From Lysobacterales bacterium 63-13 (GTDB lineage Bacteria > Pseudomonadota > Gammaproteobacteria > Xanthomonadales > Rhodanobacteraceae), in NCBI GenBank assembly GCA_001899855.1, contig MKWR01000032.1:1-46701 (forward strand): 46,701 bases of DNA, given 5' to 3'. The notes beneath the pieces are model-generated. The model did not search any database and was not told the DNA's origin. It saw only the letters and a list, made by a program, of their open reading frames with translations. This document shows, piece after piece, positions 4,002 to 46,701 of the stretch. A program made the position numbers and the translations under genes. How positions within the stretch are numbered: the first letter of the stretch is position 1; every line of letters begins with the position of its first letter.

Positions 4002-4082
4002 TTTCGTGTTGCCTTTTCTTTAGATGATCCGCCTCGCGGCGAATTGGATACTCCCCCGCGACCAGGGGAGTGGTTTGGAACC

Positions 4083-4157
4083 GGGATTCGGGATTTGGGA
4101 TTCGGGATTCGCCAGAGCGAGCAGTCAGCTTCCACGAATCCCCAATCCCCAATCCCC
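4083..4157. repeat. Palindromic GGGATTC heptad element, copy 3
   Basis: The left arm (4083-4112) has four GGGATTC-like heptads and the right arm (about 4135-4157) has inverted gaatccccaatcccc heptads, with about 22 bp between. It occupies the space between the prs stop (4162) and rplY. The orientation matches copies 1 and 2: GGGATTC on the left, its complement on the right. A separate 7-bp hairpin (actcccc/ggggagt, 4050-4071) follows on the rplY side and may help terminate prs transcription. Confidence 0.85.
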
Positions 4158-41935: not shown

Positions 41936-42052
41936 GGATTTCGTTGAAAGTGTGAATCAGGCATGGCTTTACCCCCCGGAATCCGACTAGAATTGTCAGA
42001 ACATTACACTCCGCGTCACTTGGGCGGCTGTCGAATACCAGGGGGAACATCC

Positions 42053-42490
42053 ATGCAACTGATTACTCGCTTGATTGCACTTACCCGCGGCGTGCAGCTT
42101 CGTCGCCAGTTCAAGGAAATCGAGAAGGTGCTGGAGCAACTGCCAGCCAACTCGCGGCGCCAGCTGGCCGCACTCTCGATGCGCGAGTTCTCGAATGCGA
42201 CGAAATGCGAATACCCGCATCTCTACGCGACGCCACCGGAAGAGAAATATTCGCCGTGGGGCAGCGGTACCGCGATCGGCTACGAGCGAATGAAATCCGA
42301 CAGCTTGCAGGTGCGCCTGCGTGGCCTTGCCCTCTGGCTTACGGTGACCTTCCATGAAACCAAGGATTCCCCGTACGCCGATCAGCGCGAACTGCACCGC
42401 CAGGTCATGCGCACATTGCGCACCTTGAAGGAATCGGTGCCAGCCAGCGAGATGTCGCAACTGCTGGCAAATCATCCCCAGGCAGCCTGA
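42053..42490 (+). CDS. Conserved-looking hypothetical protein
   Basis: A 145-aa cytoplasmic protein that I do not recognise. No signal peptide or membrane segment is seen. The sequence is helical and charged ('QFKEIEKVLEQLPANSRRQLAALSMREF'), with a central aromatic patch ('YPHLYATPPEEKYSPWGSG'). The start ATG at 42053 follows GGGGGAAC at a good distance. It stands between psd and a strong terminator, so it is a real short transcription unit. Its codon use looks like that of its neighbours. Confidence 0.75.
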   Translation: MQLITRLIALTRGVQLRRQFKEIEKVLEQLPANSRRQLAALSMREFSNATKCEYPHLYATPPEEKYSPWGSGTAIGYERMKSDSLQVRLRGLALWLTVTFHETKDSPYADQRELHRQVMRTLRTLKESVPASEMSQLLANHPQAA

Positions 42491-42525: not shown

Positions 42526-42555
42526 AAAAAGCGCGGCCAAAGCCGCGCTTTTTTT
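42526..42555 (+). terminator. Intrinsic terminator
   Basis: aaaaagcgcggc-caaa-gccgcgcttttttt: a GC-rich stem with A-tract and T-tract on its sides, 36 bp after the hypothetical gene. It is the best canonical terminator in the window and could act in both directions. The 143-bp repeat begins just after it. Confidence 0.9.
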
Positions 42556-42557
42556 AT

Positions 42558-42710
42558 GGCCATGGATGGCCTGTATGCCTGCAACGCAGGACGACTGCAC
42601 GGATGCAGGAGGTACGCATCCATGGATGGATGCGGTAGAACGGCGTCGGGAACGGCCGTCGAGAGCAACGCAGGAGCAGTTGCCGAGCAGTTGCAGGCGT
42701 CATGGAGGGC
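42558..42710 (+). repeat. 143-bp multi-hairpin repeat, single copy
   Basis: From ggccatggatggcctg to about gttgcaggcgtcatggag, this is nearly identical to the reverse complement of the tandem at 46454-46701. It contains the perfect palindrome catccatggatg, a cctgca/tgcagg hairpin, an acggc/gccgt hairpin and a gcaac/gttgc stem. It fills the space between the terminator and the 3' end of mltD. The unit length (143) is not a multiple of three and the reading frames do not resemble a protein. Confidence 0.9.
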
Positions 42711-45891: not shown

Positions 45892-46407
45892 ATGAGCCGC
45901 TGGCGTCCCCCGGCAGAAGCATCCTCGCCGCTGATCACGGCGGCGGGACTCGAGCGCCTGCAAGCCGAGCTTGACGAACTCTGGAATGTGCGTCGCCCCG
46001 AGGTGGTGGCTGCGTTGAGCGCGGCCGCGGCAGAAGGCGATCGCTCGGAAAATGCCGAGTACATCTATCGCAAGAAGCAGTTGGCGGAAATTGATCGCCG
46101 CGTGCGTTACCTCAGCAAGCGCATTCCCGCCCTGCGCCCCGCACATGCGCTGCCGACGGATGCCTCGGCGGTGTATTTCGGGGCCTGGTTCTCGGTCGAG
46201 GACGAGGACGGCAGCACGCATGACTACCGTATCGTCGGTGCCGATGAAACGGACGCGGCACGTGGCTGGATCAGCATTGACGCACCATTCGCGCGTGCCG
46301 CACTCAAGCGCCGTGTCGATGACGAATTCGAGGTGCAGACTCCACAGGGCCTGCGCCGCTGCGTGATCACCCGCGTCGAGTACAGCGAGCCGGCCCACGC
46401 GCGGTAG
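45892..46407 (+). CDS. greB: Transcription elongation factor GreB
   Basis: A 171-aa factor that inserts its coiled coil in the RNA polymerase secondary channel and triggers cleavage of backtracked RNA. The N-terminal coiled coil ('[18 protein letters not shown]' to about residue 85) has the GreB tip acidic motif '[20 protein letters not shown]'. The C-terminal FKBP-like domain follows ('[12 protein letters not shown]'). It starts 11 bp after the HerA-like gene and is probably co-transcribed with it. Confidence 0.95.
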
Positions 46408-46453
46408 TCGTGGCTGCCGGGCACCCATGCCTGCGCGTTGCCGGCATGGTGTC

Positions 46454-46701
46454 ATCCATGGCAATGCCAGCAACTGCTCGACAACTGCTCCTGCGTTGCT
46501 CTCGACGGCCGTTCCCGACGCCGTTCTACCGCATCCATCCATGGATGCGTACCTCCTGCATCCGTGCAGTCGTCCTGCATTGCAGGCATGCAGGCCATCC
46601 ATGCCATCGCCTGCAACTGCTCGGCAACTGCTCCTGCGTTGCTCTCGACGGCCGTTCCCGACGCCGTTCTACCGCATCCATCCATGGATGCGTACCTCCT
46701 G
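46454..46701 (-). repeat. 143-bp multi-hairpin repeat, tandem, continuing past window edge
   Basis: Two units in head-to-tail order with a period of exactly 143 bp (for example caactgctcg at 46471 and 46614). The second unit is cut by the window end. Over the core from 'ctcctgcgttgc' to 'gtacctcctgcat' the units are identical; differences cluster in the outer catccatg(g/c)ca region. The orientation is opposite to the copy at 42558-42710. It begins 47 bp after greB. Confidence 0.92.

Follow-up and report, generated by a model that had tools for sequence, protein, structure and literature searches.

Tandem repeat and inverted copy in the window

The window, that is, the entire stretch of 46,701 bases analysed here, is identical to contig C32 of Lysobacterales bacterium 63-13 (G000, hereafter the source genome) and ends within a tandem repeat. 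Beyond a gene at positions 45892-46407, which we take to be greB-like, a head-to-tail pair of 143-bp units spans positions 46466-46701, with unit 1 at 46466-46608 (+ strand) and unit 2, cut by the contig end, at 46609-46701 (+ strand). In this orientation, the + strand is the TCC or 'M' strand of the repeat and the - strand its GGA strand. Self-comparison returned a direct repeat between 46453-46558 and 46596-46701 (spacing 143, 95% identity across 106 nt), in line with the tandem of 143-bp period described in the initial annotation; the claim that it continues beyond the window did not hold, as the window end is the contig end and the assembly breaks off inside unit 2. The third copy reported in opposite orientation was recovered as an inverted unit at 42556-42698 (- strand; GGA strand +), 97-100% identical to parts of the tandem (42561-42698 versus 46466-46603, 97% over 138 nt; 42606-42699 versus 46608-46701, 100% over 94 nt).

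The ten best places for the repeat in the source genome, the query itself excepted, gave E-values of 1e-82 to 7e-53, which excludes chance. An assembly artefact, for which the location of the tandem at a contig end might speak, is refuted for the unit by 13 units at 10 loci with differing flanks and by a third copy internal to the contig; chance or artefact thus retains practically no probability, only the array length at the contig end being left out of this verdict. A separate repeat type, the heptamer CGGGATT in tandem arrays with inverted partners nearby, is found at 2613-2663 and 4082-4111 of the window.

Nested hairpin architecture

When set against simpler copies, the 143-bp unit resolves into nested layers of hairpin modules. 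Its host layer is a 48-bp unit consisting of hairpin H1 (9-bp stem, loop TGCTCCTGC), a short linker and hairpin H2 (loop ATCCATG); across the family, the H1 loop is TGCTCCTGC and the H2 loop ATCCNTG. In unit 1, read on the + strand, array comparison places the arms of the outer H1 stem at 46466-46474 (5' arm, GCCAGCAAC) and 46579-46587 (3' arm, ATTGCAGGC), followed by the H2 of the host unit at 46593-46605, whose stem is one base shorter than usual. The outer H1 loop is occupied by a 95-nt insert (46478-46572; 42592-42686 on the - strand in the third unit), delimited by comparison with simple 48-bp units and by the exact 47-nt insertion seen in Methylobacter and Methylovulum. This insert is a 47-nt H1-H2 module that itself carries a 48-nt H3-H2 module: an inner H1 (ACAAC-TGCTCCTGC-GTTGC, 46481-46499) is followed by the nested H3-H2 module (46502-46549) and then by the H2 of the 47-nt module (46556-46569; CTGCATCCGTGCAG, opposite strand CACGGATG). 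Sequence and folding place H3 (ACGGC..GCCGT, loop GTTCCCGAC) of the nested module at 46505-46524 and its H2 (GCATCCATCCATGGATGC) at 46531-46548, and the same order, H1-H3-H2-H2, recurs in Methylobacter oryzae (L143). The four hairpins listed in the initial annotation all find a place in this scheme, gcaac/gttgc as H1, acggc/gccgt as H3, and catccatggatg and cctgca/tgcagg as H2-type hairpins, and the near-duplicate 11-12-mer noted there corresponds to the outer and inner H1, i.e. to the nesting itself.

At two loci of the comparison (L017 and L019), the insert at the same point consists of the 47-nt H1-H2 module only. Among 16 entries compared, with the first L019 entry comprising two units and the second L014 entry re-reading the first, the outer arms form pairs across the insert; they have changed in concert in some copies (GCCTGCAAC/GTTGCAGGC versus GCCGACAAC/GTTGTCGGC) and are mismatched in others, such as both copies at L011. 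A CRISPR array was rejected, since the units adjoin directly, with no unique spacers between repeats.

The stems of H1 and H2 covary, with fixed loops. In a set of 33 modules (A1), 99.7% of cells were paired (shuffled 86.6) and double-change cells numbered 41 versus 11.0, with two of five measures not above shuffling (pairs with a double change, 4 versus 3.8; pair types, 8 versus 9.0). For 19 Dokdonella-type units (A3), the values were 92.1% of cells paired (shuffled 87.0), 18 versus 6.9 double-change cells and 4 versus 2.3 pairs, with one measure not above shuffling (pair types, 11 versus 9.5). As H1 was fixed by the search pattern in A1 and H2 was required to hold TCC at selection, A1 informs mainly on the H2 stems and A3 on H1. 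Unit 1 folds better than its shuffles both as RNA of the - strand (z -2.1) and as DNA of the + strand (z -4.3), as do four single modules (z -2.5 to -3.1). Since stems could also come to covary through the repair of imperfect palindromes, the covariation demonstrates the hairpin and not, by itself, an RNA.

Copies in the source genome and across the Gammaproteobacteria

At least 51 BLAST matches were obtained in the source genome (40 of 70 first-look candidates scored). The 143-bp kind accounts for 13 units at 10 loci (93-100% identity over the matched part), one without its 5' end (contig C4) and another truncated where the contig stops; the remaining matches are shorter pieces, and the common piece, read in context, is TCGGCAAYTGCTCCTGCRTTGCTCTACCTCCTGCATCCATGCAGTCG (47 nt). 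A degenerate H1 pattern occurred in 32 of 398 genomes of the order (reversed control, 0) and in at least 118 stretches of the species collection. Nearly all of the 80 matches listed with titles were gammaproteobacterial, and among the matches listed were Methylobacter, Methylomonas, Shewanella, Endozoicomonas, Pseudoalteromonas, Cellvibrionaceae, Solimonas and others; two listed from outside this class (L097 and L129) are without H2 and look like chance. A covariance model (E <= 0.001, at most 150 candidates scored per genome) returned 49 matches in the source genome, 34, 40, 13 and 12 in four congeners, 30 in one genome of another family, 116 in Shewanella KJ10-1 and 140 in Methylobacter tundripaludum SV96. 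Tandem 47-bp arrays reach eight copies in Shewanella KJ10-1. The 143-bp unit itself gave no match in five of the nine congeners searched (G001, G002, G006, G008 and G009). In two others (G005 and G007; loci L035, L044 and L050), the module lies, by eye, inside a larger palindromic repeat common to both.

In searches of phages, the module was not found, and matches occurred in seven of 72,556 plasmid records and two of 5,426 E. coli genomes. A 36-nt part of the module lies within annotated pglX genes (BREX) of two plasmids and two E. coli genomes (L421, a Salmonella plasmid, and hits H11-H14). Rfam returned only three tRNAs for the window at the gathering threshold and six chance-level matches for six loci at a relaxed threshold, nothing relevant in either case, and one open-licence library, searched with sequence words, for REPs or repeats together with CsrA/RsmA and for loop insertion, yielded no report of such a repeat family among the entries listed. 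For Rfam and a text search of this library, the earlier statement that no named family has this sequence therefore holds.

Exact insertion at filled and empty sites

A ~200-bp repeat of Methylobacter and Methylovulum occurs both with and without the module. Among 20 stretches of this repeat, six were filled with exactly 47 nt, one was filled and further interrupted, and 13 were empty, with a clean and constant junction (GCC/AAAA, the stroke marking the junction). Comparison of filled and empty sites in these 20 stretches revealed no target-site duplication, a feature for which the initial annotation had proposed to look; a duplication of TTCGTG suspected by eye was withdrawn once the empty sites were seen. 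More broadly, empty counterparts were found in the fetched sequences for 12 of 56 distinct junctions (28-mers, up to two mismatches; seven tandem or nested matches left out), representing five host types, with nine from two of these. Some empty sites could stem from precise loss.

The sequences that host the module include a AAAAGAAAG palindrome, a CTTCGTG repeat and the loop of another H2 (L083 and L385). In Shewanella, the module sits in the middle of a MITE-like repeat, in 1 to 8 tandem copies; by eye, it lies inside a larger repeat in 19 of 20 stretches, 17 or 18 of them belonging to one MITE-like kind, so that it appears to have spread there as a passenger. A further host, again by eye, is the orfA/orfB junction of a transposase gene (L338 and L342-L344), presumably of the IS3 family. 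At these four loci of M. tundripaludum (L338, L342, L343 and L344), the GGA strand of the module is, by eye, sense to the transposase, an arrangement in which CsrA control of the insertion sequence would be possible.

The flanks of the module pair with each other above chance. Of 133 modules, 76 sites remained after removal of short, near-duplicate and nested flanks, and stems of at least 8 bp were formed at eight of them (0.6 expected from mispaired flanks) and stems of at least 7 bp at 14 (2.6 expected). Duplex energies differed weakly (median -17.6 versus -16.3 kcal/mol), and longest-stem counts were used instead. Given this weak energy difference and the 62 of 76 sites without a flanking stem of at least 7 bp, insertion at hairpin tips is a preference and not a rule.

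Genomic setting of the arrays

A terminator-like hairpin with a T-run lies 3' of the gene at 41963-42490 in the window (42526-42555, + strand), as judged from sequence and array-end comparison, and the array containing the third unit starts directly after it. At 18 of 24 script-picked array ends in the source genome, an A-run comes next, together with a fold that reaches at least -8 kcal/mol in stability, a combination present at 2.4% of 6000 random positions and at 18 of 878 other ATGGC sites. The A-run was required because 84% of random positions pass the threshold of -8 kcal/mol, which makes fold energy alone useless as a terminator test. The other six ends also meet a hairpin by eye, five with a broken or absent A-run and the sixth (L032) one unit further. 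On the opposite strand, an A-run and hairpin at the array end mean that the array begins just after a terminator-like T-run.

According to simple ORF calls, 17 of the 24 arrays have the 3' end of a gene 53-289 nt beyond, with the GGA strand sense to it (the other seven being without a clear gene call), and 11 lie between convergent genes. Neither window locus bears the motifs in nine congeners (0 of 18 orthologous loci), indicating that either the arrays were gained in this lineage or all nine congeners lost them; in G002 and G003, a similar terminator, recognised by eye, stands at the place of the third copy, with no array.

Y1 transposase genes in carrier genomes

A Y1 match was found in 18 of 20 carrier genomes (five of six carriers of the order, 13 of 14 others) and also in many non-carriers (30 of 40 relatives in all). 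The two carriers without one, G005 and G412, have 13 and 3 copies of the module, respectively, and Shewanella KJ10-1, with 116 copies, has one partial match. Y1 genes are thus common but do not follow module copy number. None of 24 Y1 matches from five genomes, inspected with exact motifs, is bounded by H1-H2, and a RAYT as tied mobiliser was rejected for these; in the 14 other carriers, Y1 genes were inspected where a module-bearing locus held them. Taken together, the module-bearing loci contain 15 Y1-like ORF entries, some of them redundant, one of which lies less than 1 kb from a module, on one side. This gene of ~310 codons, from Methylomicrobium sp. wino1 (G405, L261), lies between the module, 127 bp away, and a GGGGTCAGGCCTTACG repeat.

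The initial annotation had proposed to look for a RAYT or other transposase gene. The only Y1/RAYT-type gene of the source genome is, however, flanked not by the 143-bp repeat but on both sides by another tandem repeat (GTGGGTTCGATC..GATCGAAC hairpin with GTCAGCGCACAGCGCTGAC); matches to TGCTCCTGC beside this gene proved to be part of other tandem repeats. The gene (L236, G000:C4:165400-169800, positions 1300-2830) lies within a tandem ~120-bp repeat with two hairpins, which is also interspersed in some H1-H2 arrays (e.g. L023 and L027) and is perhaps the RAYT's own REP. Two further Y1 genes, L238 (G003) and L241 (G004), lie amid plain GTAG repeats.

Discussion

The exact insertion, nesting, dispersal, tandem copies and stem covariation observed here, together with arrays beside A-run/hairpin terminator-like sites, make it probable that the 143-bp unit consists of non-autonomous, REP-like mobile elements nested in one another and built on a two-hairpin base element of ~47 nt that inserts exactly. 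The earlier view of a dispersed, mobile and structured repeat is supported by genome-wide copies, filled and empty sites and covarying stems; the overall interpretation stands in part, and the nesting and the spread of the module through the Gammaproteobacteria go beyond it. The base element comprises H1 (loop TGCTCCTGC) and H2 (loop ATCCNTG), whose stems can vary as long as both arms change together. It inserts exactly and without target duplication, and its insertions fall more often than expected at the tip or in the linker of other palindromes, those of its own relatives among them. Single-strand insertion at hairpins is the likeliest route of movement: insertion may act on single-stranded DNA exposed at hairpins, with a transposase supplied in trans, and tandem arrays may grow by slippage or recombination. 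In the source genome, arrays would have landed at two places, beside the terminator of the gene at 41963-42490 and past the greB-like gene, and the 143-bp form, nested by then, would have spread afterwards. With exact sites, both filled and empty, for so small a mobile element spread across the Gammaproteobacteria, the movement of REP-like sequences becomes directly testable.

We regard the repeat as a class-wide, nested mobile hairpin element of REP-like character, with a testable link to CsrA. Non-autonomous elements derived from IS200/IS605 have hairpins, make no target duplication and follow a single-stranded DNA logic, and the module likewise inserts exactly and without target duplication. 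It differs from them in that no Y1 gene with matching ends was found among those inspected, and perhaps in its target, for which no fixed tetranucleotide was seen: the base before TCGG is C in 80% and the one preceding it C or T in 83% of cases. Y1 genes are absent from two of the 20 carriers. REP, BIME and REPIN sequences of the GTAG and CGTC families are likewise short covarying palindromes that are intergenic, lie downstream of genes and form dimers and clusters, and some REP dimers of A. variabilis, T. roseum and H. neapolitanus are inserted within other palindromes (PMC3733652). In contrast to these families, the module joins two unlike hairpins in one 47-nt unit, inserts exactly, nests in its own loops and has a loop common across the Gammaproteobacteria, with no tied RAYT among the 24 Y1 matches inspected. 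It does consist of short palindromes with covarying stems, and the 47-nt module has (G)TAG beside H1 on the GGA strand, the last base in two thirds of cases (GTAT in the Dokdonella-type unit), bases that may correspond to a REP tag; a RAYT gene flanked by the repeat was not seen among the 24 matches of five genomes, and the Y1 gene of G405 has a module on one side only. The label 'BIME-like' fits in spirit, the arrays being a mosaic of palindromes beside terminators. Like MITEs, as characterised in PMC3733652, the module is small, non-coding and dispersed, but it is without terminal inverted repeats and target duplication and can sit inside a MITE-like repeat.

It is rather unlikely, though possible, that the repeat is a classical REP/BIME moved by a RAYT, a Y1 HUH transposase. 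The palindromic and intergenic nature of the element, the lack of target duplication, the GGA-strand bases resembling (G)TAG that adjoin H1 (on the M strand, C in 90%, T in 91%, A in 85% and C in 66% of 108 sites), the prevalence of Y1 matches among carriers and the module 127 bp from the G405 gene, on one side only, are consistent with such an origin. The Y1 gene of the source genome is, however, surrounded by another repeat and one each in G003 and G004 by true GTAG REPs, no inspected match is bounded by H1-H2, and two carriers are without any. Still less probable is that the stacked hairpins serve to reinforce terminators or to protect mRNA 3' ends, with their spread being incidental. While the frequency of A-run/hairpin sites at array ends (18 of 24, against an expected 2.4%) and the 11 arrays between convergent genes would suit this function, it accounts neither for the fixed loops nor for modules located within MITE-like repeats and an IS-like gene, and in G002 and G003 a similar terminator occurs without an array.

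A CsrA-binding role of the modules is plausible but unproven. CsrA/RsmE is known to recognise an ANGGAN hexaloop and to bridge sites 10-63 nt apart (PMC7652899), and CANGGANG features as an apical hexaloop in PMC4894983 and also appears in PMC6849547. The GGA-strand sequence of H2 is CANGGANG in 84 of the 106 even-length cases among 116 model matches (100 of the at least 118 loci given to the search), a count that arises partly by selection, since A1, the source of the model, required TCC in H2; variation falls mostly on the two N positions that the CsrA/RsmA consensus leaves open. Each module further offers, on this strand, two apical GGA hairpins ~22 nt apart, and the distance is 21-22 nt in five module kinds whose linkers and stems differ: the 47-nt module has 21 nt, and a value of 22 nt applies to its long-stem form, two Dokdonella-type units, the L143 H3-H2 module and a divergent M. 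tundripaludum module. For the window's own H3-H2 module, the value is 22 or 18 nt, because two GGA occur in its H2. Together with two CsrA matches in the source genome and the 17 of 24 arrays that lie, GGA strand in sense, 53-289 nt from a gene 3' end, these features could mark the modules as putative CsrA/RsmA-binding RNA hairpins, transcribed arrays acting as a sponge or 3'-end control site, a reading that we regard as unlikely. The same doubt attaches to its wider form, in which 47-nt elements with a two-site CsrA/RsmA landing pad (an ANGGAN hexaloop and a second apical GGA ~22 nt off), inserted cleanly into hairpins and even an IS3-like transposase gene, would be class-wide mobile RNA-regulator sites whose nested and tandem arrays rewire or titrate Csr.

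Several observations weigh against a role in CsrA binding. The fixed loop could equally be the recognition sequence of a transposase, the constant spacing could reflect shared ancestry, the arrays of the source genome lie after a terminator, and H1 reads CAGGAGC, short of the full consensus and held fixed by the search pattern. The leading A was kept in 10 of 21 cases in which position 7 is not T and, by a loose count, in 85 of ~85 T-partnered cases; as many of the non-T cases are hairpins other than H2, this point is weak. Across 158 loci from many genomes, evaluated with simple ORF calls, 30 tandem settings had the GGA strand in sense orientation and 18 in antisense; relative to the nearer of two convergent genes, the split was 5 sense to 16 antisense, and inside ORFs it was 10 to 15; orientation across the family thus does not clearly favour CsrA binding. 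Like CsrB/RsmZ-type small RNAs and RsmU (PMC7694677), the module has several GGA motifs, repeated in apical loops; unlike them, it is mobile, has no known transcript and is without an Rfam match for the window and six loci. RsmU of Xanthomonas is described as a 3'-UTR RNA that binds RsmA and still did so with its four GGA motifs changed (PMC7694677). Should CsrA bind the GGA loops, transposition could serve to establish a global post-transcriptional regulon. AuGGA was found in CsrA RIP-seq of Pseudoalteromonas (PMC11882849). In Pseudoalteromonas Bsw20308, whose public CsrA RIP-seq reads are deposited as PRJNA1134920 (SRR29791929-SRR29791952), 11 model matches fall on replicon CP013139.1, with four strong ones at 724211-724258, 785710-785758, 600818-600866 and 526423-526470; the first of these (L420, NZ_CP013139.1) lies between two same-strand genes.
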